Source: a virus. From it: 23,562 nt of DNA. Each line of letters opens with the position of its first letter. Position 1 is the stretch's first letter. Where the stretch lies: the IMG/VR virus record IMGVR_UViG_3300037487_001653, positions 1-23,562 of that record; one strand, given 5' to 3'. Of this stretch, positions 1 through 23,562 are shown piece by piece. Made by a program: the position numbers and the translations under genes. The notes below the pieces were generated by a model, which was not told where the DNA came from, ran no database searches, and saw only the letters and a list, made by a program, of their open reading frames with translations.

Positions 1-133
1 GCGCCGCGCCGCGGCGGCAACGGTTGGATTTAACCGCGGAATCGGCCCGGTTGAAAAAAGCGCAAGCGGACAAAACGGAATTGGAGGTGGACGTTTTGCG
101 CGGGACGTTGATACCCGCGGAAACGGCCCTTTT
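1..133 (+). repeat. Terminal overlap, left copy
   Basis: Identical to 23430-23562 except at base 127 (C) versus 23556 (T). It lies inside the terminase small subunit gene and most simply reflects a circular or circularly permuted assembly. Confidence 0.95.
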
Positions 134-2178: not shown

Positions 2179-2180
2179 CG

Positions 2181-2723: not shown

Positions 2724-2735
2724 TCGGTGGTGCAA

Positions 2736-4274
2736 ATGCGGCTGGTTGATATTTTCAAGCGGAAACCGGAACCGGCGCGGCGGCCGCATTATGTCCGCCT
2801 GCCGGCGGCCCGCGGTTTCAATGCGGCGAAATCGGACCGCCTGGCGTCCGGTTGGTTGACACAATCCGAGTCAATCAACCAAAATCTTTATGAGTCCCTA
2901 AACGCGTTGCGGGCGCGTTCGCGGGATTCCTATTTGAATAACGATTTTGTGCGGCGCTTTGTGTCCATGAATAGGACCAACGTAATCGGCGCGAGGGGCG
3001 TTATCCTGCAATCGCGGGCGGTGGGCGCTGACGGAAAGGCCGATAGCGGCGCGAACGACGGGGTTGAAAGGGCGTGGTTGGATTGGGGCCGGCCGGAAAA
3101 TTGTGAAGTTGCCGAGCGGCTTTCGTGGGTCCGCGTCCAATTGCAGGCGATAACGTCCCTTGCCGTGGACGGCGAAATATTGACCCGCCACGTTGTCGGC
3201 CGGCCTGGCGGCGGTAAATACGGCTACCGTATTCAAATGCTGGACCCGGAATCCCTGGATTGCCGCTATAACGAAACCGGTCCGGGCGGTTCAATGATCC
3301 GGCTTGGCGTCGAGTTTGACGCAATGGGGAAACCGCTGGCCTATCATTTGCGCCAATACCATGACCCGGCGCGGGCGTATACCGCCGGCAACGGCCGGAA
3401 ATATGTCCGCGTTCCTGCAGCCGAAATCGTCCACGCATTTTCCGCGGACCACGTTGGCCAATTGCGCGGATACCCACCGATTTCGACGTCGATGGGGCGG
3501 CTCAAAATGCTAGATGGATATTTTGAGGCGGCCATGACGGCGGCCAGGGCCGGCGCCGCAAAAATGGGATTTGTAACCACGCCAACGGGTGATGAATACG
3601 AGGGGGACGGGGAGGATTCGAGCGGAAACCGCGTAACGGATTTCGAGGCCGGCGTGATCGAAGAATTGGCCGCCGGCCAGACGTTTACCGCGTTCGATCC
3701 GCGTTATCCGCATGAGCAATTCGGCGCGTTTGTCAAAACGTGTTTGCAAACTATTTCCGGATCATTGGGACCCGGCGTTTCATATTCGGCGCTTTCGGGT
3801 GACCTTGAGGGCGTGAATTATTCCAGTATCCGGACCGGGGTTTTGGAGGAACGCGAGGCGTGGAAAGCAATCCAACAATTTTTCATTGAAGCGTTTTGCC
3901 ACCCTATTTACGAGCGTTGGTTAACAATGGCCCTAACGTCGGGCCAAATTTTCGTGGTTCCGCCGCGTGAGGGCGGGCCGCGGCCGGTGCCGCTCAAGGC
4001 CGGCATGGAATCCAAACTGCGGGCCGTGTCCTGGCAACCGCGGCGGTGGTCCTGGGTGGACCCGGCCAAGGACATGTCGTCGGCCGTTGAGGCAATCAAC
4101 AATTGCCTAACCACGCGGTCCGCCGTGATTCGGGAACAGGGCCGGGACCCGGACGATGTTTTCCGCGAACTGGCGGCCGAAAATGCGAAAATGGCGCTGG
4201 CCGGGATTGTGCCGACGCCTGGAACCCAGACGCCGGCGGCGCCGGACAACAATGGGGGAACCGATGCCGAATAA
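2736..4274 (+). CDS. Portal protein, lambda gpB family
   Basis: This forms the dodecameric ring at one capsid vertex through which DNA enters and to which the tail attaches (about 512 residues, normal for gpB-like portals). ATG 2736 is preferred over GTG 2727 because GGTGG at 2726-2730 is correctly placed for it. Typical features include the early segment LNALRARSRDSYLNNDFVRR, the RTNVIGARGVILQSR stretch, RIQMLDPESLD and the HAFSADHVGQLRGYPPISTS motif of lambda-type portals. SLGPGVSYSALSGDLEGVNY also matches the conserved SYe.lsrDlsgvNYSS region. It lies directly upstream of the protease/capsid gene and overlaps it by 11 bases. Confidence 0.93.
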   Translation: MRLVDIFKRKPEPARRPHYVRLPAARGFNAAKSDRLASGWLTQSESINQNLYESLNALRARSRDSYLNNDFVRRFVSMNRTNVIGARGVILQSRAVGADGKADSGANDGVERAWLDWGRPENCEVAERLSWVRVQLQAITSLAVDGEILTRHVVGRPGGGKYGYRIQMLDPESLDCRYNETGPGGSMIRLGVEFDAMGKPLAYHLRQYHDPARAYTAGNGRKYVRVPAAEIVHAFSADHVGQLRGYPPISTSMGRLKMLDGYFEAAMTAARAGAAKMGFVTTPTGDEYEGDGEDSSGNRVTDFEAGVIEELAAGQTFTAFDPRYPHEQFGAFVKTCLQTISGSLGPGVSYSALSGDLEGVNYSSIRTGVLEEREAWKAIQQFFIEAFCHPIYERWLTMALTSGQIFVVPPREGGPRPVPLKAGMESKLRAVSWQPRRWSWVDPAKDMSSAVEAINNCLTTRSAVIREQGRDPDDVFRELAAENAKMALAGIVPTPGTQTPAAPDNNGGTDAE

Positions 4275-6171
4275 GGCGGGCGTGGTGGCCGGCGCTTTCA
4301 AGGCCGGGGAGCGGGTCCGGAGCGTCGAATTTAGCCGGGAAGCGGTGGACCCGGACGCCAGGACCGCGGCGGTTGTGTTTTCGTCGGAGGCGTTGGTTGA
4401 TCGCGGCGGGTACTATGAAGTTTTGAGCCACGAACCCGGCGCCATCCGTGGCGGCCGGCTGGACCGCGGTATGGCGGTCCTGGTTAACCACGAACCCGCG
4501 GACCACGTGGGCGTTGTTGAAAGTTGGACCGTTGGCCAGGACCGCCGGGGGCGGGCTTCATTGCGTTTCGGCGTAGGCGCAAGGGCTGCGGAAATTTTTG
4601 AGGACGTTAAAACGGGGATTCGGTCGGGCGTGTCCGTGCGGTACGTTGTCCACGATTTCCGCGAGGAAACCGCGCCGGACGGGTTGCCGCTAATGAGGGT
4701 AACGGATTGGGAGCCAACGGAAATTTCGTTAGCCAGTGTGCCGGCGGATATTGAATCGGCCGTTGGGCGCACTATCACCACGTGCCCGGCAACGCCGGGG
4801 GGGAGAAGTGAGAACATGAGCCAAGAGCAAAACCCGGCGCCGGCCGCGTCGGTGGTGGACGTTCGGGAAGTGGAAACGCGGACGCGTGCCGCGGATCTGG
4901 CCCGCGTCAATGAAATCATGGCAATCGGTGACGCCAACAAGTTGCCGGAACTGGCCCGCCACGCAATCGCCACGGGGCAGACGCTTGACGATTTCCGCCG
5001 CCAGGCGCTTGACGAAATCGGCAAGCGGCAAGCGGCCATTTCGTCCGCGTCGGCGTCGGTCGGCATGACGGAAAAGGAAATCAAGCGGTATTCCTTTGTC
5101 CGGGCGATCCGGGCGCTGGCCAATACTACGGACCGCGGTTTGCAGGAAGCGGCCGCGTTTGAATTCGATTGTTCGCGGGCGGCCCAGGATTCCAGCGGCC
5201 GAACGTCCCGCGGTATCATGGTGCCGCATGATGTGACCACGTACCAGCGTGCCGTGATGATCGCCGGAACCGCGAACGTCGGCGGCTATTTGAAGGAAAC
5301 CGCGATTCATGCGGAATCTTTCATTGACGCTCTGCGGAACCGTTGCGTTGTTTTGCAGGCCGGCGCTACGGAAATGGGTGGCCTGGTCGGGGACGTTGCG
5401 ATTCCGCGGATTGATACCGTGTCAACCGCAACGTGGGTTGGCGAGGACACCGCGCATACACAAACGAACCCGGTTTTGGGGCAGATGGCCCTTACTCCGC
5501 GGCAGGTCGGCGCATATTCGGACATTTCAAAAAAACTGTTGGCGCAGTCCACGCCGGCCGCCGATATGATCGTCCAGAATGACCTTGCGCTGGCCCTGGC
5601 AACGGCCATTGACCGCGCCGCGTTCCACGGCACCGGGACGCTGCAGCCGTTGGGCATTGCCGGCGCCACGGGCACCGGCATTACCGGCGTTTCAGCGTCC
5701 TATACCGGCGCCACAGACGGCGCCTCGCCGACGTATGCCCATTTGGTCGGCGTCGAGTCGGCGCTTGCGGGCGCCAACGGTGACGTTGGCAAAACGGCGT
5801 GGATTACCAACGCGTCGGTTCGCGGCAAGTTGCGGCAGATTTTCACCAACGCCACGTATGGAAGCCAGCCGTTGTTTACCAACGTTGCCGGTTCGCCTGG
5901 TGAGGGTGAAATCCTGGGATACCGTTGTTTGGTGACTAACCAAGTCGCCAATAACGTTACGCGTGGAGCGTCAACGTCAATTTGTTCTTTCGCGTTCCTG
6001 GGTGATTGGTCGGCGCTGGTTGTCGGTATGTGGACCGGCGTAGATTTGCTGGTTGATCCCTATTCGCTTTCCACGCGTGGCCAGGTGCGGGTTGTGGCCA
6101 TTCAGTTGGCTGACGTTAACCTGCGGCAGGCCGGCGCTATGGCGTTCCTGGGTGGTATCCTGACCACGTAG
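4264..6171 (+). CDS. Prohead protease fused in frame to HK97-fold major capsid protein
   Basis: One open frame of 635 residues. ATG 4264 follows GGGGG (4254-4258), so the start 36 codons further upstream is rejected. Residues ~1-175 match the U35 (HK97-type) prohead protease: SRE start region, LVNHEPADHVG (H76 candidate catalytic), RSGVSVRY (S124 candidate) and EISLASVPAD. A strong internal start, ATG 4816 (residue 185) behind GGGGGGAGAAGTGAG, begins the capsid half. A helical scaffold-like segment (185 to ~300) is followed by the HK97-fold core with VGGYLKETAI, ALTPRQVGAYSDISKKLL and HGTGTLQPLGI. Both the fusion and a separate 451-residue capsid protein could be made. Protease-capsid fusions are known in phages; the dual product here is inferred. 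Confidence 0.92.
   Translation: MPNKAGVVAGAFKAGERVRSVEFSREAVDPDARTAAVVFSSEALVDRGGYYEVLSHEPGAIRGGRLDRGMAVLVNHEPADHVGVVESWTVGQDRRGRASLRFGVGARAAEIFEDVKTGIRSGVSVRYVVHDFREETAPDGLPLMRVTDWEPTEISLASVPADIESAVGRTITTCPATPGGRSENMSQEQNPAPAASVVDVREVETRTRAADLARVNEIMAIGDANKLPELARHAIATGQTLDDFRRQALDEIGKRQAAISSASASVGMTEKEIKRYSFVRAIRALANTTDRGLQEAAAFEFDCSRAAQDSSGRTSRGIMVPHDVTTYQRAVMIAGTANVGGYLKETAIHAESFIDALRNRCVVLQAGATEMGGLVGDVAIPRIDTVSTATWVGEDTAHTQTNPVLGQMALTPRQVGAYSDISKKLLAQSTPAADMIVQNDLALALATAIDRAAFHGTGTLQPLGIAGATGTGITGVSASYTGATDGASPTYAHLVGVESALAGANGDVGKTAWITNASVRGKLRQIFTNATYGSQPLFTNVAGSPGEGEILGYRCLVTNQVANNVTRGASTSICSFAFLGDWSALVVGMWTGVDLLVDPYSLSTRGQVRVVAIQLADVNLRQAGAMAFLGGILTT
4796..4818 (+). promoter_or_regulatory. 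Internal ribosome binding site and start for free capsid protein
   Basis: A purine-rich run (GGGGGGGAGAAGTGAG) lies just before ATG 4816, inside the protease-capsid frame. It is one of the strongest Shine-Dalgarno-like stretches in the window. An in-frame internal start here would produce capsid protein without the protease, which makes sense because hundreds of capsid subunits but few proteases are needed. Confidence 0.65.
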
Positions 6172-6195
6172 GCGGCGCGTCGGGTGTATCGGGTG

Positions 6196-6227
6196 GGCGC
6201 CGGCCGGGCAATCTGGCGGCCGGCGCC
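6196..6227 (+). terminator. GC-rich hairpin after the capsid gene
   Basis: A perfect 10-bp inverted repeat, GGCGCCGGCC (6196-6205) and GGCCGGCGCC (6218-6227), flanks a 12-base loop. There is no T-run directly after it, so it may slow or partly stop transcription, protect the 3' end of capsid mRNA, or be a by-product of the many GGCCGGC motifs in this genome. Confidence 0.35.
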
Positions 6228-6316
6228 TAAGTTGAAAACGGCGGTCAACGCGAGCTGTTGCTTTTTCGTGATAGTTGCTGCCGGCGGCAGGCCGGCGGCG
6301 GTGAAAGGTGGGGGTT

Positions 6317-6556
6317 GTGGCAAACGTTTTTGTTGTGATAACCGCGGGCGTCCAGGCGGCCGGCAAAAGTTGGGCGGCCGGCGATCTGGTCGAAGTGTCC
6401 CAAAATGACGCCAATATTTTGTTAGGCGTCCGCCGGGCCGTTTTGGCGACACCGGAGGAAATCGCGTTGGCGGCCGGCGTATTGCCGGACGTTGACCCGG
6501 AAGTTACCGCCGATCCGGTGAAACCGAAACGCGGACGGCCGGCCCGTGCCGATTGA
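6317..6556 (+). CDS. Small head-associated protein of unknown function
   Basis: 79 residues, between capsid and head-tail connector genes. GTG 6317 is chosen because GGTGGGGG at 6307-6314 lies just ahead, while the earlier GTG 6308 would sit inside that site. The first half is hydrophobic/beta-like (ANVFVVITAGVQAAGKSWAAGD) with the pattern GDLVEVSQNDANILL, seen in short proteins encoded after capsid genes. The tail is acidic and then basic (KPKRGRPARAD). The position matches lambda gpFI, but I see no firm similarity. It could assist packaging or be a head-completion factor. Confidence 0.7.
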   Translation: MANVFVVITAGVQAAGKSWAAGDLVEVSQNDANILLGVRRAVLATPEEIALAAGVLPDVDPEVTADPVKPKRGRPARAD

Positions 6557-6920
6557 AACCGCCGCGGACCGGATGGCGGCCCTAAAGTGGGCCGGCCAGT
6601 TGGTAACGCTGGACCGCGTGGCCACGCCGGCGCCGGGGGAAACCGTGCCGTTGGGCGGGCCGCCGCTGGTCAACGCCTGGACCGCGTGGGCCGTATTTGA
6701 CCGGCAATTTGTGGCCGTGTTAGGCGTCGAATCCTACCGGCCAACGCTGACGTTGCGCGAAACGGACGCGTATTTGGCCGGGTATAACGGGCAGGCGGCG
6801 TATCTGGCCGAACGGGCGACCGTGGCCGCCACGGAAACGCTGGCCGGGACGTTTACGGTGTTAGGGATCGAACGGGACGGGACGGGTCTGGCCCTAATGA
6901 TTTTGGAGGCGTCCGCGTAA
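6546..6920 (+). CDS. Head-tail attachment protein, gpFII-like
   Basis: 124 residues from GTG 6546, overlapping the previous gene by 11 bases, probably translated by coupling since no good ribosome site is seen. The C-terminal two thirds show the joining-protein pattern: AVFDRQFVAVLGVESYRPTLTLRETDAY, then a short barrel ending FTVLGIERDGTGLALMILEA. This resembles lambda gpFII, which caps the connector and docks the tail. Position (after capsid, before gpZ/gpU) supports it. The assignment is by pattern and synteny, not alignment. Confidence 0.65.
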   Translation: MPIETAADRMAALKWAGQLVTLDRVATPAPGETVPLGGPPLVNAWTAWAVFDRQFVAVLGVESYRPTLTLRETDAYLAGYNGQAAYLAERATVAATETLAGTFTVLGIERDGTGLALMILEASA

Positions 6921-7513
6921 TGGCGCAAAATGGTGGTTTTTCGATCCGGCTCAAAACCGACTTCGCGGTTACGCGCCGCGAATTGGAACGGATTGAGCGG
7001 GTCCATATCCCCAAAGCCAAAGCGGCGGCGTTTGCGCGGGCCGGAAATGCCGCGTTGTCGGCGGCGTCAACGGAATTGGCAATGGTGGCCGGCGTCCCTA
7101 AGTGGATGATTCGGGGCGTCGGCGGCGGAGCCGGCGCGAAATCGTCCGGCGCCAGGCTACGGCGCACCAATTATATCCCGCGAATCGACGGGATTATTCT
7201 GGTCCTGTTGCACCGGCATATAAATCCGGCCGGCAACGTCCGAAAGGAAAACCGCGTAACCACGATGGCCCGCGGCGGCGGCGTTCGCGTGGCGGCGGTT
7301 GGTAAGGCGTACCCAAACGCGTTTCATCGGCCCGGCCCGGCCGGCGGCGCGGTCTTTACGCGGATCGGCACCGGGCCGGGGCGCGGCCTGAAAATGGAAA
7401 CGCTGGCAATGGACCCGTGGGCGGAAAAATTGGTCCGGCGGACGGCCGGCGTGGTGGTCCCGCGGGTTTTCGCGGAACGCTTTGAACATGAAATGCGGCG
7501 CCGCATTAAGTAG
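6920..7513 (+). CDS. Minor tail protein, gpZ-like
   Basis: 197 residues, close to lambda gpZ (192). ATG 6920 shares one base with the preceding TAA. It is a basic protein with the gpZ layout: FAVTRRELERIERVHIPKAKAAAFARAGNAAL, an IP-RIDGIILVL strand, an FHRPGPAGGAVFTRIG segment and a basic C-terminus ending EHEMRRRIK. In lambda, gpZ acts late in tail maturation so that the tail can join heads. It sits between the gpFII-like and gpU-like genes, exactly as in lambda. Confidence 0.82.
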   Translation: MAQNGGFSIRLKTDFAVTRRELERIERVHIPKAKAAAFARAGNAALSAASTELAMVAGVPKWMIRGVGGGAGAKSSGARLRRTNYIPRIDGIILVLLHRHINPAGNVRKENRVTTMARGGGVRVAAVGKAYPNAFHRPGPAGGAVFTRIGTGPGRGLKMETLAMDPWAEKLVRRTAGVVVPRVFAERFEHEMRRRIK

Positions 7514-7531
7514 CGCGGGGGGTTGCGGGTA

Positions 7532-7990
7532 ATGGCCCACGCCAGGGAAACGATCCGGAAGGCCGTGGTAACCGCGGTTACCGGGTTAACGTCCACGGGT
7601 TCGCGGGTGACCTGCGGCGTGGCGCATGACCGGCCGTTGGCGTCCCTGCCGGCCCTGGTGGTTGAGGTGGCCACGGACGGCGGGGAAACGGTATCGGCCG
7701 AAATGGAAAACGAATTCGGCGCCGTCCATATCCGCCGCCTGCCGGTGACCATAACCGCAATGGTATACGGCGGGACAACGTATTTGGACGCGCTCGATTT
7801 GATTTGCTTAGAAGTCGAAACGGCTATTCATGCGGCCACGGCGCTAACGGCAATGGTCAAACGGATCGGCCTGGAATCAACGGAAATATCAATGTCCGGG
7901 GAGGGCGAAACGCCGGTGGCGGTGGCCGTCCAACGGTGGGCGGTCCTTTATGCAGTTGACGAAACGGCGCCGTCCGCGGCGCTAACCTAA
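7532..7990 (+). CDS. Tail terminator, gpU-like
   Basis: 152 residues. ATG 7532 is chosen over TTG 7523 because GGGGGG (7517-7522) is well spaced from it. The start HARETIRKAVVTAVTGL, followed by LPALVVEVATDGGETVS, RRLPVTITAMVYG and DALDLICLEVETAI, is the common plan of tail terminator/completion proteins, which form a hexameric ring that stops tail-tube growth and provides the head-docking surface. Gene order (gpZ-like before, tail tube after) supports this. Confidence 0.75.
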   Translation: MAHARETIRKAVVTAVTGLTSTGSRVTCGVAHDRPLASLPALVVEVATDGGETVSAEMENEFGAVHIRRLPVTITAMVYGGTTYLDALDLICLEVETAIHAATALTAMVKRIGLESTEISMSGEGETPVAVAVQRWAVLYAVDETAPSAALT

Positions 7991-8003
7991 CGGGGGTTCC
8001 AAA

Positions 8004-8420
8004 ATGGCGATTGTGCGGGGCAAGTTGGCGCGGGTTTTGATCGGTTCCACGCCGGCGGTTGTCGGGCATCTGGTCGGAAAAATCGACTACGAAGTTTCCG
8101 ATACGTTGATCGAAACGACGGCGTATGATTCGACCACGCGGACATATGTGCCGGCCGATTTGAAAACGGCCACGTTGTCCATTGAGGCGCAATTCGATGC
8201 CGCGGACGCGCCGCAGGACGCGTTGCGGACCGCAATGGTGGCGGGTGCCGTGGCCCTGGTCCCGGTGACGATTTACCCGGAGGGTTCCACGGCCGGCCTG
8301 GTGAAATTTTCCGGGTCGATGGCGCTCAAAAGTTTGAAAGTCCTTTCCGCGGACGTTGAGGGGATAACCACGATGGCGGCCACGTTTGAAGGGGCGCCGC
8401 TGGTCGAGGCTACGGTATGA
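8004..8420 (+). CDS. Major tail tube protein
   Basis: 138 residues. ATG 8004 follows GGGGG (7992-7996) by 7 bases. It is beta-rich with a tube-protein plan: RVLIGSTPAVVGHLVGKIDYEVS, DTLIETTAYDSTTRTYVPADLK, and LVKFSGSMALKSLKVLSADVEGITTMAATFEG near the end. This matches TP901-1-type tail tube proteins, which polymerise around the tape measure. It directly precedes the tail chaperone genes, the standard position for the tube gene. Confidence 0.85.
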   Translation: MAIVRGKLARVLIGSTPAVVGHLVGKIDYEVSDTLIETTAYDSTTRTYVPADLKTATLSIEAQFDAADAPQDALRTAMVAGAVALVPVTIYPEGSTAGLVKFSGSMALKSLKVLSADVEGITTMAATFEGAPLVEATV

Positions 8421-11226: not shown

Positions 11227-12228
11227 GTGGCAATCCTATATGGTCCAATCGCAAGGCTGGCGTTGCCGGACGATGGGAATCAAGCGTGGGGCGGTGCGAT
11301 CCGGCAGAATTTCGAAACGCTGGAAAAGTTGGCCGCGGCGTCTAACTGCTATTACGTGAGTCCGGCATTTACTGACGCGGAAATTCATACGGCCGGCGCC
11401 ACGGACCCGCGGTTTTTCCAAACAATCCAGGCGGCCCACGATGCGATTCCGGCCACGTATGGGCACAACAATCTGGCGACAATTTTTGTTGAGCCGGGGC
11501 AGTATACCGAAAACCTAACCATTACAAAATGCGTTCGGTTGGTTGCCCACGGAGCAACAAATTATCGGGGATACGTTGGCGGCGTAATCATTGCCGGCAC
11601 TTCTGCGGCCCTGGTGCCGACTGTTACGGTAACCGCGCCGTCTGGACAATTTATTTGCGTCGGATTTGATGGGTTTGGTTTTCAAAACGTCTACAGTGGC
11701 GCGGCCACAACGATTTCCCAGGCGCAATTATTGAAGGTGACAAAGCAAACGGTTTACGGCGCGTCACCGGTTACGCTGACCTTGCAAAATTGTGATTTGC
11801 GGGCGCAAACGTGGGGCGTCAACAATGATTGGGCGTATGGAATCCACGTTGACGGTTACGCCGATTTTTTCATGCGGCGTTGCGCTATGGTCGCTTTAAA
11901 TTTCAATAACGGCGGCGTTGGAGATTCCGGAATCGCCAACGTTATTTGCGTGACCGGCGATAATGCGAACTCCAAACCGGCAACGGCTTTGATTGACCAG
12001 TGTGCGTTTTCCCAAGCATACGCGGGCGACGGCGCCGGCACCGGAAACCGGTCCGTGTTTTACGTGAATAACAGGGCCGCCGTTGTAGTGGCGCGAACGT
12101 CAGTATTGAAGGCGGCAATTGGCGGGTTTACGGCAATTGGGATCACGGGCACAAACTCCGTTACCGGCTTGGCGGCCGATACCGGGACGTATGGTAACCT
12201 GCTGAATATTGATTTGGCGAATCTGTAA
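11227..12228 (+). CDS. Tail fibre or spike with right-handed beta-helix
   Basis: 333 residues. GTG 11227 is preceded by AAAGGCGG. Residues ~10-35 (ALPDDGNQAWGGAIRQNFETLEKL) match the short N-terminal segment common in phage fibre/appendage proteins. FFQTIQAAHDAIP, followed by IFVEPGQYTENLTITKCVRLVAHG, is a typical pectate-lyase-like parallel beta-helix entry; later rungs include LTLQNCDLRAQ and ALIDQCAFSQA. Such proteins bind or cleave surface polysaccharide. No catalytic residues can be assigned. The base composition is visibly more AT-rich than neighbouring genes, suggesting exchange of this host-range module. Confidence 0.75.
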   Translation: MAILYGPIARLALPDDGNQAWGGAIRQNFETLEKLAAASNCYYVSPAFTDAEIHTAGATDPRFFQTIQAAHDAIPATYGHNNLATIFVEPGQYTENLTITKCVRLVAHGATNYRGYVGGVIIAGTSAALVPTVTVTAPSGQFICVGFDGFGFQNVYSGAATTISQAQLLKVTKQTVYGASPVTLTLQNCDLRAQTWGVNNDWAYGIHVDGYADFFMRRCAMVALNFNNGGVGDSGIANVICVTGDNANSKPATALIDQCAFSQAYAGDGAGTGNRSVFYVNNRAAVVVARTSVLKAAIGGFTAIGITGTNSVTGLAADTGTYGNLLNIDLANL

Positions 12229-16676: not shown

Positions 16677-16885
16677 CGGGCGTTCGCAAGTTTACGCTTT
16701 CGGTCCTGGCCCTGGTGCTAACGCTGGCGTTTGCCGCGTGGGCGCCGGGGATAACAGAGGCGGCCCGCCTGCGGGCGTTGCAGTTGGCGGAATTTGAATT
16801 CGGGGCGGCCATATTGGGCCACGTGGCAAGCGATTTGGTGAAACGTCCGGCCGGCGGCCGGCAAACGGAGGGCGGAACAAAGTGA
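16673..16885 (+). CDS. Small membrane protein in lysis cluster
   Basis: 70 residues. ATG 16673 overlaps the endolysin stop (ATGA). It has one N-terminal hydrophobic helix (FTLSVLALVLTLAFAAWAPG, about 7-26) preceded by basic residues, then an amphipathic Ala/Leu/Glu segment and a basic tail. It could be a holin partner, an inner-membrane spanin-like protein or a secreted peptide. It overlaps the next gene by a GTGA junction, so it is part of the same operon. Confidence 0.68.
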   Translation: MTGVRKFTLSVLALVLTLAFAAWAPGITEAARLRALQLAEFEFGAAILGHVASDLVKRPAGGRQTEGGTK

Positions 16886-17310
16886 GCGTGTTTACCGCAA
16901 TCGGAAAAATCGTGGCAAAAGCGTATGGTGCGGTTTCGTTTGTTGTGGGGATCGGAAAACAGATGGTCCCGTTTGTCCGGGCGGCCCGCGAATTGTCGCC
17001 GGACCTTGACCGCGTGGTTGACCGTATCGAGGCGCAAGTGACCGCGGGCGGGGACGCGGCGGATGATTGGATTGACCGCAACGTCGAAGCGGTGCGGGCG
17101 CTGGACAATTTCTTTTCCGAATTGGTGGTTGCGGGCCAGGCCGGCCGGGAAGTAACCGCGTTGGCCCTGCGGTTTTCGCAAGCGGAAACGCCGGATACCA
17201 TTACGCCACGTGAAACCGAAACGTTGGTCCTGGCCGTGGCGGCGCTGCGGGCGGCCCTGGCGGATTTGGGAACCGCGGACGATTTGGAAAAGATGCTGGC
17301 GGGCCTTTGA
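16882..17310 (+). CDS. Helical protein at end of late operon, unknown
   Basis: 142 residues. GTG 16882 overlaps the previous stop. It is all-helical in character: a mildly hydrophobic start (FTAIGKIVAKAYGAVSFVVGIG), then acidic amphipathic helices (DLDRVVDRIEAQVTAGGDAADDW) and a Leu/Ala-rich C-terminus. It has no cysteine and no clear membrane span. Its place after the endolysin and before the promoter block makes it the last late gene. No family is recognised. Confidence 0.7.
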   Translation: MSVFTAIGKIVAKAYGAVSFVVGIGKQMVPFVRAARELSPDLDRVVDRIEAQVTAGGDAADDWIDRNVEAVRALDNFFSELVVAGQAGREVTALALRFSQAETPDTITPRETETLVLAVAALRAALADLGTADDLEKMLAGL

Positions 17311-17323
17311 CCGCGTAAAACGG

Positions 17324-17353
17324 TTGACCGCCGGCCGGCTGGTGCGGTAGAAT
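17324..17353 (+). promoter_or_regulatory. Promoter P1 (sigma-70-like)
   Basis: TTGACC at 17324-17329, an 18-base spacer, then TAGAAT at 17348-17353. Both boxes are close to consensus, and this is the best promoter I see in the window. Transcription would start near 17360. The -35 box lies within CGGTTGACCGC (17321-17331), which recurs at the second promoter. Confidence 0.6.
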
Positions 17354-17359
17354 TAACCA

Positions 17360-17424
17360 TGCGTTACCGGACGGAACCGGTGGCGTTGGGCGGTCCCTTG
17401 CGCGAGGGGGGCCGCCTATTTTTT
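17360..17424 (+). ncRNA. Short leader / possible small RNA between P1 and terminator
   Basis: A transcript from P1 would run about 64 bases and end at a strong intrinsic terminator. It could fold into a first hairpin (ACCGG 17366-17370 with CCGGT 17377-17381) and then the terminator hairpin. It may be an attenuated leader, an antitermination target or a free small RNA. The ATG at 17359 would be leaderless, and I do not believe it is used. Confidence 0.35.
17389..17424 (+). terminator. Intrinsic terminator between late and early operons
   Basis: GGCGGTCCC (17389-17397) pairs with GGGGCCGCC (17408-17416), giving nine base pairs including one G-U, with a 10-base loop. TATTTTTT follows directly (17417-17424). 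This is the clearest rho-independent terminator in the window and would separate the structural operon from the genes downstream. Confidence 0.8.
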
Positions 17425-17436
17425 CGCAAATATCGG

Positions 17437-17466
17437 TTGACCGCATTTCGGGGCGCGGATTATTGT
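17437..17466 (+). promoter_or_regulatory. Promoter P2 for the early gene cluster
   Basis: TTGACC at 17437-17442, an 18-base spacer, then TATTGT at 17461-17466, directly after the terminator. Its -35 box is embedded in the same 11-mer, CGGTTGACCGC (17434-17444), as P1. Transcription would begin near 17473 and lead into the gene at 17510. The shared near-palindrome CGGT-TG-ACCG could be an operator for one regulator acting on both. Confidence 0.5.
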
Positions 17467-17509
17467 GGGCGCGTCGGCGTGGTGTCGGCGCGAAACCGTG
17501 GGGGTTGTC

Positions 17510-17746
17510 ATGCTGGAATTGGTGGCGTTGAAGGCCGTTTTTGTTCTCACGCTTGGCGCCGTGGACGGCTGGTTGGTCCGCGGCGTTTTGCGTTCCGTCC
17601 CGCGTTCCGGGGATTGGTGGATAGGGGTTTTGTTGTCGGTGTCGGTCGGCCTGTTGGTCCTGGCGGAATTGCTGCGGCTGGTGGCGCTGGTGGCCGGCGG
17701 TACGGTGGGCCAGCCGGGCGGCCCGGTGGTCGGGGGCGGGATATGA
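17510..17746 (+). CDS. Small two-helix membrane protein
   Basis: 78 residues. ATG 17510 follows GGGGG (17500-17504). Two likely membrane helices (ELVALKAVFVLTLGAVDGW, ~3-21, and WWIGVLLSVSVGLLVLAELL, ~36-55) are separated by a basic loop (RSVPRSGD), with a Gly/Pro-rich tail. It is the first gene after the promoter block. It could be a class II holin-like protein (two helices) placed apart from the endolysin, or an early membrane protein affecting the host. A longer overlapping frame from 17359 is judged spurious. Confidence 0.68.
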   Translation: MLELVALKAVFVLTLGAVDGWLVRGVLRSVPRSGDWWIGVLLSVSVGLLVLAELLRLVALVAGGTVGQPGGPVVGGGI

Positions 17747-17997
17747 GCCGGCGCGGGGCCGTGGCCATTTACGCGGCAAAAGATCCGGCGGGCCGCTACC
17801 GTCCGGAAACCGTTAGCTATCAAGTGCGGTGGTGCTGGACGCGGACGGCGGTTACCTGCCCGGATTTCCCGCGGCCAGGGCGCGGCGTGGACGTTTTGAA
17901 TCCGGGCCACGCGAAACGGCGCGGAACGCGTGAGGGCTGGACGGTAGCCCGCGTGGTATTGCGCGGGGTTCCGGATTCGGGGGGCACCAATGGATAA
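17743..17997 (+). CDS. Small basic protein, unknown
   Basis: 84 residues. ATG 17743 overlaps the previous stop (ATGA) and has GGGGGCGGG (17732-17740) ahead. It starts MSRRGAVAIYAAKDPAGRYRP and contains two cysteines and a Trp pair (RWCWTRTAVTC). It is rich in Arg/Gly, with no membrane span. No family is recognised. It belongs to a chain of overlapping small early genes. Confidence 0.6.
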   Translation: MSRRGAVAIYAAKDPAGRYRPETVSYQVRWCWTRTAVTCPDFPRPGRGVDVLNPGHAKRRGTREGWTVARVVLRGVPDSGGTNG

Positions 17998-18346
17998 TCA
18001 GGCGGACCGTATGTTGGCCGGCGCCGCCGGTCCATTTGACGGCGTGAAACGGGCGTCCGCGGCCGTCCAGGCGTTGCGGGCGCTGTTGGCCTGTTGCCGG
18101 TTGGGCGGACCGAATAACCGATGGAACAACGGTTGCGGTTGTTGCGCCACGGAAACGCTGGTCGAAATGCCTGAATATCTGGCCGCCGTGGCAGCCCTGG
18201 CGGCCATTGACGGCGGTTACGGGCCGGACGCGGCCGCGGCCGCCGGCGTTTGCAATTGTTCGCTGCGGGTTCGGTTGGTCGGTGACGGGTGCCGGGTTTG
18301 TAACCAGGATTACGCGGCCGGCCTGGACGGTGCCGAAAATGGCTAA
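17990..18346 (+). CDS. Cysteine-rich small protein, possible metal binder
   Basis: 118 residues. ATG 17990 follows GGGGGG (17979-17984). Nine cysteines fall in four clusters: ACCR, GCGCCA, VCNC and GCRVCNQ. These are spaced so that one or two zinc or iron-sulphur sites could form, with a helical Ala-rich segment between (PEYLAAVAALAAIDGG). No known domain is recognised. It overlaps the winged-helix gene by 8 bases, so the pair may act together, for example a metal-dependent DNA-binding partner. That is inference. Confidence 0.68.
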   Translation: MDNQADRMLAGAAGPFDGVKRASAAVQALRALLACCRLGGPNNRWNNGCGCCATETLVEMPEYLAAVAALAAIDGGYGPDAAAAAGVCNCSLRVRLVGDGCRVCNQDYAAGLDGAENG

Positions 18347-18899
18347 ATGGCGCCGCGTTGACCCGGAGGCGTGGACCCGGCCGGAATCTGGCCGGCCGGT
18401 GCCGTCCGGTATTGATTTGTTCACACCGGCGCCGTTTGTCCGGCAATCGGAAACGTCGGCCGCGGCGGCGGAGTCAATCGGCGCGGTTGCCGGGACGATC
18501 CGGGCGGCCGTATACCGCGAATTGCAGGACCGCGGCAAGGCCGGCGCCACGGACGATGAACTACAAACGGCGCTTGGCCTGCGGGTCCAGACGGAAACCG
18601 CCAGGCGTTGCGAGTTGGTGGATTTGGGGTTGGTGTCTGATTCTGGCCATACCCGCAAAACGTCCGCCGGCCGGCTGGCCGTGGTTTGGGTGGCCGCGCC
18701 TGACCGTTTCGGGGCCGGCCGCAAGCTATCGGCCGGCGGATTCCGCGGAACGGCGCGGCGCAAGGCGGCCAGGACGGCCCTATTGGAGTCCGTGATAGCA
18801 GACGCGCAACGTTGGTTAGAATCGGCCGGCGCGGAACGTAGCGGCGGTCCGGACCTTGCGGCGCTGTTTGAAATCCTGGCGCGGGGGGGCGGCAAATGA
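18339..18899 (+). CDS. Winged-helix DNA-binding protein
   Basis: 186 residues. ATG 18339 is taken because it gives a compact overlap with the upstream gene; the open frame extends 44 codons further but over coding DNA. Residues ~55-110 show the pattern RAAVYRELQDRGKAGATDDEL, QTALGLRVQTETARRCELVDLGLV, then DSGHTRKTSAGRLAVVW, a winged helix with recognition helix and wing as in phage/transcription winged-helix proteins that sense whether a following residue pattern is conserved in DNA-binding factors. The rest is an Ala/Arg-rich helical tail. It may regulate the early promoters or support replication. Confidence 0.72.
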   Translation: MAKWRRVDPEAWTRPESGRPVPSGIDLFTPAPFVRQSETSAAAAESIGAVAGTIRAAVYRELQDRGKAGATDDELQTALGLRVQTETARRCELVDLGLVSDSGHTRKTSAGRLAVVWVAAPDRFGAGRKLSAGGFRGTARRKAARTALLESVIADAQRWLESAGAERSGGPDLAALFEILARGGGK

Positions 18900-19120
18900 G
18901 CGGGAACGAAAAACGGCGATTGGCTGACGGTGACCGGATAACCGCCGCCGGCCTGCGGTTCCGGTTGTCATGCCATTGGACATTTTGGGCGGTTGGCGTG
19001 TCGGTTTCGGTCCGCCGCCATTGGTACGATTTGCAGGCTGGCCGCCAGGCGGCAACAACGTTCGGCGTTATGGCTGGCCCGTGGACGTTGTGGGCCACAA
19101 TCGAAAGGGCGGAAAAATGA
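18896..19120 (+). CDS. Small early protein, unknown
   Basis: 74 residues. ATG 18896 overlaps the previous TGA, with GGGGGGG (18883-18889) upstream. It is Trp-rich (six Trp) and Arg-rich: HWTFWAVGVSVSV, RRHWYDLQAG, PWTLWATIERAEK. It has no membrane span or metal motif. It is held as real on ribosome site, overlap and position; function is unknown. Confidence 0.6.
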   Translation: MSGNEKRRLADGDRITAAGLRFRLSCHWTFWAVGVSVSVRRHWYDLQAGRQAATTFGVMAGPWTLWATIERAEK

Positions 19121-19392
19121 GCGGTTGCAATCGGGCATTTGTCCGCCTGGTCCTGGCGGCGCGGATCCGGGCCACCAACGCCAGGCGCCGGCGCGGCTGG
19201 CCGCGGGCCACGGTGGCGGCGGCCTGGGCGGAATACCGCTGCAGGCGGCGCCGGCCGGCGCTGGACGCGCCGCGGCCGGCTGGTGGCCCGGTGGCCCGGC
19301 CTGGCCGGCGCGGCCCGCAGGCGGCCGCCGTGGCGCTTGTGGGATGGGTTAAAAATGCGTTGCGGGTTCCTGGCCGCGGTCGGGCGCGGTAG
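19117..19392 (+). CDS. Arg/Ala-rich small protein, unknown
   Basis: 91 residues. ATG 19117 overlaps the preceding stop (ATGA) with AAAGGGCGG upstream. It is very basic (many Arg, e.g. ARIRATNARRRRGWPRA, EYRCRRRRPAL), so it might bind nucleic acid. Low sequence complexity and the presence of other open frames here reduce certainty. It is the last gene of the first early cluster, before the hairpin at 19399. Confidence 0.5.
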   Translation: MSGCNRAFVRLVLAARIRATNARRRRGWPRATVAAAWAEYRCRRRRPALDAPRPAGGPVARPGRRGPQAAAVALVGWVKNALRVPGRGRAR

Positions 19393-19398
19393 CGGGCG

Positions 19399-19422
19399 AC
19401 GGCGCCAGACGTTCGGCGCCGT
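19399..19422 (+). terminator. Hairpin between early gene clusters
   Basis: A perfect 8-bp stem, ACGGCGCC (19399-19406) with GGCGCCGT (19415-19422), and an 8-base loop, followed by AAGTCCTATCTGTTT. The T-tract is poor, so it may be a weak or factor-aided terminator. It lies in the 66-base gap ahead of the next gene. Confidence 0.45.
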
Positions 19423-19458
19423 AAGTCCTATCTGTTTAACAATCTGCCGGGGGTGGTT

Positions 19459-19914
19459 ATGAGGCAATCGGAAATTGACGCGGGGGTTGCGCGGCGGGCG
19501 GCGGCGGCTATCGACGGGCCAAGAATGGCGCGTGGCCGGATCAATATCGGATCGGCCAGCGGGACGCTTTACGCGTTCCGCCAAGAAATGATTGTACGCG
19601 TGCCGGCCGTGGCGGACGATAGGTTTCCGGCGTTCCGCTATTACGTGGCCGCGGAATTCGGACGCGAGGAAATCCGCGGCCTGCGGCGCCTGGCCGCCGC
19701 AAACGCTGACGGAATCGCGGCGCCGTCCCGCCTGGTCCTTTCCCTGGACGGTCCGCCGCCGTCCTATTGTCCGGGTGCGCGGGTGGTGTCGGTAATGGTT
19801 ACCGGCAAGCTGGGCGGCCTGGCGGACGCGGACGTTGTTCTGGTCGGGGCGCCGTTCCTGGCGGTCCCGAAATCGAATTGGCGCCGCCGGCTGGCGGCAT
19901 GGTTTCGGCGGTGA
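19459..19914 (+). CDS. Unknown early protein
   Basis: 151 residues. ATG 19459 follows GGGGGTGG (19449-19456), which rules out GTG 19453. The N-terminus is helical (SEIDAGVARRAAAAIDGPRMARGR), the middle has strands (TLYAFRQEMIVRVPAVADDRFPAFRYYVAAEFG) with REEIRGLRRLAAANADG after it, and the end is basic (PKSNWRRRLAAWFRR). No domain is recognised. It is the first gene after the hairpin at 19399. Confidence 0.65.
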   Translation: MRQSEIDAGVARRAAAAIDGPRMARGRINIGSASGTLYAFRQEMIVRVPAVADDRFPAFRYYVAAEFGREEIRGLRRLAAANADGIAAPSRLVLSLDGPPPSYCPGARVVSVMVTGKLGGLADADVVLVGAPFLAVPKSNWRRRLAAWFRR

Positions 19915-19980
19915 CGGTGTTAACCCGGATTCCGTTCGGGTCTGTTTGGGAACAACTAAACCATTTCCGTGGGGGAAAAC

Positions 19981-20673
19981 ATGAATCGAGCGTTGAACCT
20001 TTCGCCGGACGTTTTGGGCCTGATTCGGGACGCGTTGCCGGACATTTTGGGAATTTCCATTTCCGCGGCCGGTGCATCCGGCCGCTGGTCCGTTATCGCG
20101 GTAACGGGTGACGTTGGCGTTGTTTTACACCGGGGCATTTCGCGGGCGCGGGCGACCGATTTGGCCGATGAGGCGCGGTACGCCGTTTTGGCCCTGCGGG
20201 CCGGCGCCAATAACCCGGCAACCGGCGCCGTTTGTCCGCCAGGACCGCGGCCGGCGCCGCCGCTGGCCCGTGGCGCCACGTTTGACCGCGGGGCGGCCGC
20301 TGGTGCAGGCCGGCGCCAGGGCGCCGCAGGCGGCCAGCGGGACGCCACGGTGCCAAAACTGGCCGGCGTCCCGGTAATGACGATAGCGGCCAACCGGATG
20401 ATCCCGCCGGGAGCGTGGACCAGGATAGGCGCCACGTACCCGGCCGGCGCCGTGAAAATGGTGCATTGGCGGACGCGGTTCCACGCCAGGCCAACGTGTC
20501 ATTTTTCAGCGGACCGGGCCACAACGCTTTGCGGCCGGCCGATTCCGCTGGACGATGGCGCGGCAACCGTGGCGTGGGGGACGCGGGCCGGAACGTCGGG
20601 AACGTGTGCGGTATGTGAGGCAAAGCGGGAATCGGCGGCGGCGCTGGCGTCCGCCGTGGGGACCGCATTATGA
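19981..20673 (+). CDS. Unknown early protein with C-terminal cysteine pairs
   Basis: 230 residues. ATG 19981 is 5 bases after GGGGG (19971-19975), and the GTG 19969 overlaps that site. The N-terminal ~75 residues form a compact domain (SPDVLGLIRDALPDILGISIS, WSVIAVTGDVGVVLHRGIS, ARATDLADEARYAVLALRAG). A Pro/Gly/Arg-rich linker follows, then a C-terminal segment with HFSADRATTLCGRPI and GTCAVCEAK whose Cys/His could bind zinc. It overlaps the replication gene start by four bases. A role in replication or recombination is possible only by neighbourhood. Confidence 0.65.
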   Translation: MNRALNLSPDVLGLIRDALPDILGISISAAGASGRWSVIAVTGDVGVVLHRGISRARATDLADEARYAVLALRAGANNPATGAVCPPGPRPAPPLARGATFDRGAAAGAGRRQGAAGGQRDATVPKLAGVPVMTIAANRMIPPGAWTRIGATYPAGAVKMVHWRTRFHARPTCHFSADRATTLCGRPIPLDDGAATVAWGTRAGTSGTCAVCEAKRESAAALASAVGTAL

Positions 20674-21497
20674 GGGCGCGGAATATCAAACCCGGCTTTT
20701 TCGCTAATGACCGCCTGGTTTCCCTGGACCCGATATACCGGTTGCTGTTTGTCGGGCTTTGGTGCATGGCGGACCGCCGCGGATTGGTAGAGGACCGTCC
20801 GGCCAAAATCAAGTTGACGCTGTTTCCCGGTGACAATATCGACGTTGAGGCCGGGATTGCGGCACTTGTGGCCGGCGGGTTTCTGGTGCGCTACGTGGAC
20901 GCCAAAGGAACCACGGCCATTTCGGTGGTCAATTTCAGCCGGCACCAAAACCCGCACCAACGGGAAAAGGAAAACCCGGACATTGAACCGCCGGAATCGA
21001 GCGATTCCGCGCCTGTTGAGCCTAAACCAAACGGGCCAAAGCCGGTTACGCCGGCCGCGGGCCGGCCTGGTGCCGGCACCGGGCCGGCCCGGCTGATTCC
21101 TGATTCCGGATTCCTGATTCCTGATTCCGGATTGTTGAATCCTGAAGGGGGAGCCGGGCCGGGCCGGCCGGCGGCCGGCCCCCGGCCCGGCCTATCCCGT
21201 CCCGCCACGTTGAAACAAACGGAATTCGCGGCGCGGCTGTTGGACGGCCACGGGTTGACGGTTTCCAAATGGCTGGCAAACCACGGTGCCGGCGCCGTGT
21301 TACTTGACGGCCACGTTGACCGAATCAAGGCGGATTATTCCGAACCGCCGGCGCCGCGGCGGGCCTATGAAATCCCGCAACCGCCGGACCCGGAGTTGAC
21401 CGCGGCCGAACGCAACGCCGGCCTGGCGGCCCTGGCCCGCCTGCGGGCGGCTGGCGGCCTGCCGGTCGGACGGCCGGCCGCTACGGTGGGCAATTGA
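20670..21497 (+). CDS. Replication initiation protein with internal origin-like repeats
   Basis: 275 residues from ATG 20670 (ATGA overlap). The first ~105 residues (ARNIKPGFFANDRLVSLDPIYRLLFVGLW, EDRPAKIKLTLFPGDN, GFLVRY, VVNFSRHQNPHQREK) are the characteristic N-terminal domain of phage replication proteins related to DnaD/lambda O-type initiators, a winged-helix region. Residues ~142-158 are encoded by a tandem 7-bp repeat array (21094-21142), as lambda's origin lies inside gene O. The C-terminus is helical (LKQTEFAARLLDGHGLTVSKWL), possibly for binding a host helicase or loader. No phage helicase is seen, so host factors are probably recruited. Confidence 0.82.
   Translation: MRARNIKPGFFANDRLVSLDPIYRLLFVGLWCMADRRGLVEDRPAKIKLTLFPGDNIDVEAGIAALVAGGFLVRYVDAKGTTAISVVNFSRHQNPHQREKENPDIEPPESSDSAPVEPKPNGPKPVTPAAGRPGAGTGPARLIPDSGFLIPDSGLLNPEGGAGPGRPAAGPRPGLSRPATLKQTEFAARLLDGHGLTVSKWLANHGAGAVLLDGHVDRIKADYSEPPAPRRAYEIPQPPDPELTAAERNAGLAALARLRAAGGLPVGRPAATVGN
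21094..21142 (+). other. Candidate replication origin: 7-bp / 21-bp iterons
   Basis: Seven consecutive heptamers: TGATTCC, TGATTCC, GGATTCC, TGATTCC, TGATTCC, GGATTGT and TGAATCC. They form a 21-bp unit repeated twice and started a third time. The block is markedly AT-richer than its surroundings and lies inside the initiator gene, the arrangement used by lambda ori. Confidence 0.65.
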
Positions 21498-21694
21498 AGG
21501 CGCCGCCGGACGGGTGCGCTTGTCCCGCGTGTGGGGCGTCTGGCGTGGTCGGCGTGGTTCCGCGCCGCTACCTTTGCGGAACGTGGACGGATGCCGCGGC
21601 CAACGTATACCCGTCCGTTTTTTGCTTAATGACGGCCGAACAAATGGCAACCGGGAAATGGGACGAAAGCGGGGCTGACAATGCCGGCCGATAG
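21494..21694 (+). CDS. Small zinc-ribbon-like protein
   Basis: 66 residues from TTG 21494, overlapping the previous stop (TTGA) with GGTGGG upstream. CACPACGASG, followed by RRYLCGTW and a further Cys (VFCLM), suggests a small zinc-binding knuckle. It is similar in layout to short phage proteins found near replication genes. Function is unknown; the TTG start makes the exact N-terminus tentative. Confidence 0.6.
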   Translation: MKAPPDGCACPACGASGVVGVVPRRYLCGTWTDAAANVYPSVFCLMTAEQMATGKWDESGADNAGR

Positions 21695-22028
21695 GAATTT
21701 GGCGCCTTACGTGTCCAGCGAATCGCGGGCCATTGAATCGCTGGCCCTGGTGGTGACCGCGTTAGCGGCCCGGCTGGCGTTACTTGAGGCGGAAACGGCA
21801 ACGGTCCGCCTGGTCTGGACGCGTGATATAAATCTAACGGGCGGCCATTTAGCGAACGAAACGCGGGCGCGGGTTGTTGCGTTGCGGGACGCGTTATTGG
21901 CCGCCGAAACGGCTGCGGCTGGCGCGTCTTTAGTGGTCGATACGCTGGCGGCCGTGGCCGGCGGCTATCGGTGGCGGCGGTCGGAGTTGGGGAACCATAA
22001 CGGTCCGGGGATACCGGACGATTTCTAG
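21681..22028 (+). CDS. Helical small protein, unknown
   Basis: 115 residues from ATG 21681, overlapping the previous gene by 14 bases. Residues ~15-45 form a leucine-rich amphipathic helix (SRAIESLALVVTALAARLALLEAETATVR) with coiled-coil character; another helix spans ~60-95. The C-terminus is short and polar (GNHNGPGIPDDF). No family is recognised. Confidence 0.6.
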   Translation: MPADRNLAPYVSSESRAIESLALVVTALAARLALLEAETATVRLVWTRDINLTGGHLANETRARVVALRDALLAAETAAAGASLVVDTLAAVAGGYRWRRSELGNHNGPGIPDDF

Positions 22029-22039
22029 GGGGTGGCGGT

Positions 22040-22393
22040 TTGAAAAACGTGTTTCGGGTGGCGCTGTTTGTGGCAATGCTGGCGCCGCTGGTGGTGTCCG
22101 GCCAAACGGTAACGGTTGCGGTCCGGTATTCATGGACCGCGCCGGTTGACGGATCGGCGGTCCACCATTACGAAATCCAAACGTCGGCGGCCGATCCGGT
22201 GTCCTGGTCCGCCGCGGGTACGGTGACCACGCCGGCCGCTACGTTGGGCCTGGCGGCCAACGTGGCCACAATCGTCCGCGTCCGTGGCGTTGACGCGTTG
22301 GGGCGGTCGGGCGTCTGGTCGGACAATTCGGTTCCATATACGGCCGATCCTGGCCCGCCGGGCGCCTGCGGCAAACCGGCCCGCCAGTTATGA
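22040..22393 (+). CDS. Secreted fibronectin-III-like protein
   Basis: 117 residues from TTG 22040, with GGGGGTGGCGG (22028-22038) upstream. The signal peptide is MKNVFRVALFVAMLAPLVVS, with cleavage likely near G21/Q22. The remaining ~95 residues follow a fibronectin type III plan: VRYSWTAPVDGSAVHHYEIQTS, then TIVRVRGVDALGRSGVWSD. A secreted single-domain protein between replication and HNH genes is unusual. It may act in the periplasm or outside. It overlaps the HNH gene start by four bases. Confidence 0.7.
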   Translation: MKNVFRVALFVAMLAPLVVSGQTVTVAVRYSWTAPVDGSAVHHYEIQTSAADPVSWSAAGTVTTPAATLGLAANVATIVRVRGVDALGRSGVWSDNSVPYTADPGPPGACGKPARQL

Positions 22394-22740
22394 AAACCGC
22401 GGTCCGTTGGCGGTCTGAGGATTATTTGCGTTGGGTGGCGTCCAGGCCGTGCGCCAGGTGCGGACGCGAGGGTGAAACCCAGGCGCACCATATCCGCGGC
22501 GCCGGCCACGTGTCGGGCGTTGGCGTCAAGGCGCCGGACCATTGGGCCGCGCCGTTGTGCTGGCGTTGCCATAATGATTTCCACGCAAACCCGTGGCCGG
22601 GAGCGGCGGCGGATCAGTACCGATGGATTGCCGAAACGCTGGCCGCGTTTGTGGATGAAATGGCGGACCATTACCCGGCAACGCTGCATGGTTTTTGTGG
22701 GTGGTTGGCCCGGTTCGGAACGTGGCCGCCGGCAAAATAG
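22390..22740 (+). CDS. HNH-type nuclease (YbcO/DUF968-like)
   Basis: 116 residues from ATG 22390 (ATGA overlap). The zinc/HNH pattern is clear: C21-x2-C24, AHH (H33, H34), GVGVKAPDHWAAPLC (C57), C60-H61 and H65. This layout (C..C, HH, G-G-K--D----PLC--CH---H) belongs to phage recombination-associated HNH nucleases such as YbcO/NinG-like proteins. It probably cuts branched or single-stranded DNA during replication/recombination or assists packaging near the terminase genes. It is the last gene before the 22741-23251 region. Confidence 0.8.
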   Translation: MKTAVRWRSEDYLRWVASRPCARCGREGETQAHHIRGAGHVSGVGVKAPDHWAAPLCWRCHNDFHANPWPGAAADQYRWIAETLAAFVDEMADHYPATLHGFCGWLARFGTWPPAK

Positions 22741-22929: not shown

Positions 22930-23018
22930 TAGCGGCCGCTTAGCGGGTCCTTCCGGGGCTTTTGGCGTAGCGGGTCGCCGGCGCCCCAAGATTTGCCTAG
23001 AGTTGCGGCGCCCTAGCG
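22930..23018 (+). repeat. TAGCG(GG) and GGCGCCC direct repeats
   Basis: TAGCGG occurs at 22930, TAGCGGGTC at 22941-22949 and at 22968-22976 (27 bases apart), and TAGCG at 23014. GGCGCCC occurs near 22980 and near 23008. Repeated short motifs just ahead of terminase genes are what one expects at terminase binding sites, but this is inference. Confidence 0.5.
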
Positions 23019-23043
23019 TTCCACCACAGGATAACGGCAAGAC

Positions 23044-23065
23044 GGACCACAATCGGTTGTGGTCC
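23044..23065 (+). terminator. Palindrome 1: hairpin with T-rich tail, or operator
   Basis: GGACCACAA (23044-23052), a TCGG loop (23053-23056) and TTGTGGTCC (23057-23065) form a perfect 9-bp stem, followed by TTTCGTGTTTT. It is a plausible intrinsic terminator for the early operon. It also shares its CCACAA core with palindrome 2, so a dimeric protein may bind both. Confidence 0.6.
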
Positions 23066-23088
23066 TTTCGTGTTTTACGAGCTGCGGA

Positions 23089-23108
23089 AACCACAACCGG
23101 TTGTGGTT
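23089..23108 (+). promoter_or_regulatory. Palindrome 2: perfect 20-bp CCACAACC/GGTTGTGG operator-like site
   Basis: A perfect 20-bp palindrome centred between 23098 and 23099. It is spaced 43-44 bases centre to centre from palindrome 1, i.e. about four helical turns. A TTGTGG (23101-23106) with CAAAAT 17 bases later could be a weak promoter for the terminase operon overlapping this site. Confidence 0.55.
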
Positions 23109-23251
23109 GGGCGGTCCCGTGTCCAAAATAAAAAACCCCACAATACCGCGGACGGGCGCCAGGGCCGGCGCCGCCGCTATTTGTCGGCGGACGGACCAGT
23201 GGCCGCCTAACCAAAACCGGATTCCCAAGCCAACGGCGGTTAACTGTGGCA

Positions 23252-23562
23252 ATGGTAGCGCGGCGCTGGTCGATTTCGGCGCTGGCCGTCGAATTGAGCG
23301 CGGACCGGCGGACGATTGCCGCGGCTTTGGCGGACGTTCCGCCGGCCGGCAAATCCCGCGGGTCCCCAACGTTCCGGATGGCGGACGCGGTGGCGGCGCT
23401 TTATGGAACGGTGGACCCGTCCAGGGCCGGCGCCGCGCCGCGGCGGCAACGGTTGGATTTAACCGCGGAATCGGCCCGGTTGAAAAAAGCGCAAGCGGAC
23501 AAAACGGAATTGGAGGTGGACGTTTTGCGCGGGACGTTGATACCCGCGGAAACGGTCCTTTT
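23252..23562 (+). CDS. Terminase small subunit, Nu1-like, N-terminal part (continues at window start)
   Basis: ATG 23252 (GTG 23246 is an alternative) opens a frame that runs off the end and continues at base 134 of the window. The start VARRWSISALAVELSADRRTIAAALADV is a Nu1/MerR-like winged helix-turn-helix used to bind the packaging site; GSPTFRMADAVAALYG follows as in Nu1-like proteins. The helical segment ARLKKAQADKTELEVDVLRG is shared with the copy at the window start. The final 7 bases include the single mismatch to the start copy, C127 versus T23556, changing Ala102 to Val. Confidence 0.82.
   Translation, partial: MVARRWSISALAVELSADRRTIAAALADVPPAGKSRGSPTFRMADAVAALYGTVDPSRAGAAPRRQRLDLTAESARLKKAQADKTELEVDVLRGTLIPAETVL
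23430..23562 (+). repeat. Terminal overlap, right copy
   Basis: Right copy of the 133-base overlap. Joining it to the left copy restores an uninterrupted terminase small subunit gene, supporting a complete genome of about 23,429 bp. Confidence 0.95.

Follow-up and report, generated by a model that had tools for sequence, protein, structure and literature searches.

A strong intrinsic terminator between two promoter-like sites at a probable operon boundary of an uncultured phage

In the viral DNA analyzed here (IMG/VR record IMGVR_UViG_3300037487_001653, positions 1 to 23,562; the whole stretch of 23,562 nucleotides is referred to as the window), a block of 199 nt holds a strong intrinsic terminator placed between two σ70-like sites, P1 and P2. 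This block is probably an operon boundary, at which the terminator ends a structural/lysis operon, P2 starts the next operon, and P1 would add a short RNA, and this is the simplest account that makes use of all the parts. The terminator, the two promoter-like sites, the fold, the gene layout, and the circularity of the genome are established by computation; transcription at the block and the direction of its use are what we infer. The block is ordinary in kind and neatly built, a control region of a familiar type.

Genome Organization Around the Block

The end and the start of the window overlap by about 133 bp (1–133 and 23430–23562); this overlap is not letter-perfect, and there is no exact terminal repeat in the window. 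Since a near-identical contig from another record (L160) joins window 22973–23562 to window 1–8371, the genome is circular or circularly permuted, with a length of about 23.43 kb, and the record is complete. Every convincing gene of the window is carried by the + strand, and the features that define the surroundings of the block are the following:

17311–17509, + strand: the block, 199 nt, from the stop of gene 16882–17310 to the ATG at 17510
16882–17310, + strand: gene of 142 aa that closes the upstream structural/lysis operon, no assigned family
17510–17746, + strand: first gene after P2, 78 aa, holin-like with two hydrophobic stretches, GGGGG 5 nt before the ATG
20670–21497, + strand: replication initiation protein, in the downstream operon
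22390–22740, + strand: HNH/DUF968 protein, in the downstream operon
22944–23254: second clear non-coding stretch, the only other one in the genome, before the terminase genes

The upstream operon encodes, in this order, terminase small subunit, terminase, portal, capsid, tape measure protein, SLT lysozyme, and the product of gene 16882, where the labels for portal and capsid rest on gene order and sequence without a family match. The gene for the terminase small subunit starts with an ATG at about 23255 and spans the junction of the circle. The downstream operon (17510–22740) encodes a small membrane protein with two transmembrane segments, unknown proteins, the replication initiation protein, and the HNH/DUF968 protein. 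Start and stop codons of the genes in 17510–18346 overlap, which suggests that these genes form one operon.

The earlier note had presented the block as the only clear switch in the genome between structural and early genes. Its position at a junction holds, in that a structural/lysis operon is followed by one of replication type; the first downstream gene is holin-like, and the terms “early” and “late” are deduced from gene content only. The word “only” went too far, since another non-coding stretch, 22944–23254, is present on the circle ahead of the terminase genes. Two palindrome-like repeats of 18 bp, 44 nt apart, are located in this second stretch before the gene for the terminase small subunit:

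23046–23063: ACCACAATCGGTTGTGGT, with a T-rich stretch after it
23089–23108: ACCACAACCGGTTGTGGT, a perfect palindrome of 20 bp, longer than any other perfect one in the window

Among the other fetched loci, both palindromes occur only in L160. They may serve the late operon as operators.

Terminator and Fold of the Predicted RNA

A transcript starting at P1 and stopping at the terminator is predicted to consist of the following elements:

17359–17424, + strand: predicted P1 transcript, about 64–66 nt, two abutting hairpins and U6
17361–17386, + strand: hairpin 1, 10 pairs, loop of 6, −15.3 kcal/mol
17387–17424, + strand: hairpin 2, intrinsic terminator; 13 pairs and loop of 6 (17387–17418), −23.7 kcal/mol, U6 at 17419–17424

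The strong terminator that had been proposed for this place is better than described, as its stem comprises 13 pairs, closed by a loop of 6 and followed by TTTTTT. A stable GC-rich hairpin thus stands directly before a U-tract, and hairpin 2 with its U6 is therefore predicted to be a terminator of the intrinsic type. Among the 24 + strand T-runs of at least five in the genome, this one has the most stable upstream hairpin, and its energy of −24.5 kcal/mol is equalled by 0.33% of random + strand positions. In RNA folding, named before as a check, the 67-nt stretch folds with −40.3 kcal/mol, compared to −26.4 for shuffles (z −4.5).

Hairpin 1 begins within 0–2 nt of the predicted start of P1 and adjoins the terminator hairpin, so that the predicted RNA is almost devoid of unpaired bases outside its loops and tail. 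Both hairpins are kept when the folded region is widened to 17311–17520 and would therefore form in transcripts arriving from upstream as well. The − strand folds far less stably (−23.9 kcal/mol over 71 nt), and the element thus points along the + strand. Positions 17375–17397 resemble 23095–23118 (common GTTGGGCGGTCCC), a likeness that was dropped since the genome contains other internal matches that are at least as good.

Two Promoter-Like Sites Sharing an 11-mer

A promoter scan places both promoters of the earlier note where they had been proposed, with the same boxes and with spacers of 18 nt:

17324–17353, + strand: P1, σ70-like, TTGACC-18-TAGAAT, 10/12 matches, predicted start 17359–17361
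17437–17466, + strand: P2, σ70-like, TTGACC-18-TATTGT, 9/12 matches, predicted start about 17472–17476
17321–17331, + strand: first copy of CGGTTGACCGC, holding the P1 −35 box and the dyad CGGT-TG-ACCG
17434–17444, + strand: second copy of CGGTTGACCGC, holding the P2 −35 box

These scores refer to the Escherichia coli consensus, which may not apply in the host of this phage. P1 and P2 are the only separate pair of + strand sites of such quality at most 150 nt apart, none of 2000 shuffled versions of the block with dinucleotides preserved contained two sites of at least 9/12, and the combination of −35 and −10 hexamers at 16–18 nt exceeds chance at both. A promoter, a hairpin with T5, and a second promoter within about 200 nt are found once in 5.6 million strand-bases of other fetched phage DNA, and in that case the hairpin is weak; as those loci differ in base composition, this figure is a guide and not a probability. 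In the same scan, a − strand site (17488–17459, 9/12) overlaps P2; no gene on the − strand could be assigned to this site.

That both −35 boxes sit in a common 11-mer, CGGTTGACCGC, is confirmed, and the two copies belong to a 20-nt repeat with 80% identity (17312–17331 and 17425–17444). The 10-mer CGGTTGACCG represents the dyad CGGT-TG-ACCG. With two occurrences in the window (in the copy at 17321–17331 and at 17434) vs. 1.5 expected, CGGTNNACCG is neither rarer nor commoner than by chance, and only its placement is notable, not its frequency. The dyad over both −35 boxes hints at a shared operator, through which a single DNA-binding protein of the phage could control the two promoters. TTGACCGC is present at 10 sites of the window vs. 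1.6 expected, half of them (5 of 10) in 17006–17444; some of these sites are Asp-Arg codon pairs.

It is possible, rather than probable, that only the terminator and P2 are real and that P1 is a relic or a chance match, perhaps through duplication of the 20-nt element CGC..AAA..CGGTTGACCGC. Such a repeat could copy an operator with its −35 box without creating a working promoter, and the P1 spacer is of 18 nt, as is that of P2, vs. an optimum of 17. Against this reading, P1 scores better than P2, and a −10 box follows both −35 copies at equal spacing, an event that is rare among the TTGACM sequences of the genome: on the + strand, only three of 24 are followed by a −10 box at 16–18 nt, two of these three being P1 and P2.

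Related Genomes and Coding Potential of the Block

No genome covering the block was found by blastn of 16800–18200 against phages and of 17290–17520 against plasmids, by scanning viral contigs at the protein level with an alignment or proteins of the window, by a pattern search for the twin 11-mer, or by two genome scans. Three small contigs of related viruses (L161, L162, and L163; portal 75% identical in L161, the other value being 57%) hold only the part from terminase to capsid, L162 with a few tail genes in addition, and for this reason the block is out of view in them. An otherwise different genome, L023, encodes a homolog of gene 16882 with 46% identity that ends at the same point. What follows in L023 differs from the block and contains no promoter-like site; it includes a strong GC hairpin without T-run (11282–11345) and, beyond it, an ORF of 499 aa on the other strand that may encode a recombinase.

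This homolog bears on the question of whether the block itself is coding, i.e., whether read-through or an overlapping gene in frame 1 extends over 17311–17500 and the likeness to promoters and terminator is accidental. Past the TGA of gene 16882, its frame has no further stop from 17311 to 17997, the codon score of this frame over 17311–17460 is 0.20 and thereby within the coding range (in-frame mean 0.28, sd 0.12; out-of-frame mean −0.16, sd 0.14), and coding-like codon use in this frame lasts to about 17490, so that the block may be, or derive from, coding sequence. In opposition to this, the L023 homolog ends where gene 16882 ends and the frame 17311–17997 has no family match, and therefore it is improbable that the block is coding at present. 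A different frame is clearly coding from 17510 onward, and a hairpin with U6 together with twin promoters is improbable by chance. Altogether, we consider a coding role of the block very unlikely.

Possible Roles of the P1 Transcript

A small RNA gene was among the functions proposed earlier for the segment from P1 to the terminator. This proposal is compatible with the two abutting hairpins, the U6, and sub-threshold Rfam matches to two-hairpin small RNAs; it gained no family assignment, since no Rfam family reaches its cut-off on the window. In the search with the block alone, the best match, BjrC68 (RF02353), aligns at full length to 17353–17424 and scores 22.4 bits against a gathering cut-off of 39, too little for membership. 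BjrC68, a small RNA of Bradyrhizobiaceae, has the same shape as the block, a hairpin followed by a terminator hairpin with a U-tail, and the likeness is mostly one of shape. Matches of the block to RF01489, RF02241, and other small RNA families are at chance level.

If P1 and the terminator formed a dedicated phage small RNA gene, an RNA of about 64 nt would accumulate and act in trans on RNA or protein of phage or host. The P1 start and the base of hairpin 1 agree within 2 nt, the two hairpins and U6 fill the predicted RNA, whose fold is more stable than that of shuffles by the z-score given above, Rfam points to small RNAs of two hairpins with a terminator, if below threshold, and phage small RNAs are known (PMC12197685). 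Conversely, apart from its 6-nt loops the RNA offers hardly any unpaired seed, the search for targets at translation start sites gave none that convinces (best gain −5.0 kcal/mol, at 20670), and no Rfam family reaches its cut-off. We hold this reading only tentatively. It would be a highly speculative and quite improbable step further to see in this seedless RNA a new kind of phage RNA whose structure is the active part, which might bind RNA polymerase or a protein of the phage in trans, for instance, and thereby time the switch between the two operons.

The earlier note had also compared the block with the antitermination leaders of phage HK022. The HK022 put RNAs are about 70 nt long, form two stem-loops, and let polymerase pass later terminators, and putL starts a few nucleotides after the PL start (PMC9378689). 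The block resembles putL and putR in its two predicted stem-loops and in its length. The stem-loops are predicted directly after P1, a position like that of putL provided that P1 is an active early promoter. In contrast to put, which passes terminators, hairpin 2 of the block is itself a terminator, so that its function would be the opposite one. There is no likeness in sequence either. When putL and putR were located by their mutual likeness in the HK022 record, which lacks put annotation, they aligned to each other with a score of 26, whereas the leader scored 8 with putL (77% of shuffles as good) and 10.5 with putR (29%). As the shared put sequence is absent from the leader and hairpin 2 carries U6, a put-like antitermination leader is not supported.

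Of the attenuator proposed for the block, the leader-peptide variant finds no support. The predicted leader has a single ATG, placed at the predicted +1 (17359), which leaves no untranslated leader upstream of it. The frame of this ATG remains open as far as 17997, so that no closed frame exists and attenuation by a leader peptide is unlikely.

In the late leader of phage λ, a short transcript from pR′ ends at the intrinsic terminator tR′ before the operon, and Q provides antitermination. The block is similar in that the short transcript of a promoter would meet an intrinsic terminator before an operon; it differs from pR′-tR′ by a much shorter leader, a second promoter after the terminator, and the lack of a recognized Q-like gene. 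A −10-like pause element as used by λ Q is absent from the first transcribed bases (ATGCGTTACCGGACGG from 17359, read directly), so that the λ Q layout is not supported, and no gene of the Q family was found among the genes scanned, many of which have no family.

More generally, P1 might also serve the downstream operon as an attenuated leader whenever a phage or host factor passes polymerase over the terminator. The order of promoter, short leader, terminator, and operon is the classic one, and an unseen antitermination factor is conceivable because several genes of the operon have no known family. Such an antitermination switch is nevertheless unlikely: with P2 right behind the terminator, the operon has no need of read-through, no antitermination protein was recognized among the genes scanned, and pause element, leader peptide, and likeness to put are all missing.

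A Boundary Between Two Operons

The operon boundary that we favor would work as follows. The hairpin with U6 would terminate transcription of the structural/lysis operon (terminase to 16882–17310) and shield P2 from read-through, and P2 would start transcription of the operon 17510–22740. P1 would fire an RNA of about 64 nt that folds into the two abutting hairpins and stops at the terminator, and therefore P1 would add no operon mRNA unless something lets polymerase read through. Its product would be either a stable small RNA or an attenuated transcript that lies idle. This arrangement is supported by the position of the strongest + strand hairpin with T-run in the very gap between gene 16882–17310 and gene 17510, and by the content of the flanking operons, with SLT lysozyme upstream and replication initiation and HNH proteins downstream.

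Phage operon junctions with terminator and promoter show the same GC-rich hairpin and U-tract after the last gene, with the next promoter directly downstream. Compared to such an ordinary junction, the block has an extra promoter before the terminator, an 11-mer common to both −35 boxes, and an abutting second hairpin. It gives a defined place to the boundary between the two operons of this uncultured phage, which has no more than distant relatives. An active P1 would make of the block a small RNA or an attenuator of compact build; with P1 inactive, the block would illustrate clearly how an operon junction can be insulated.
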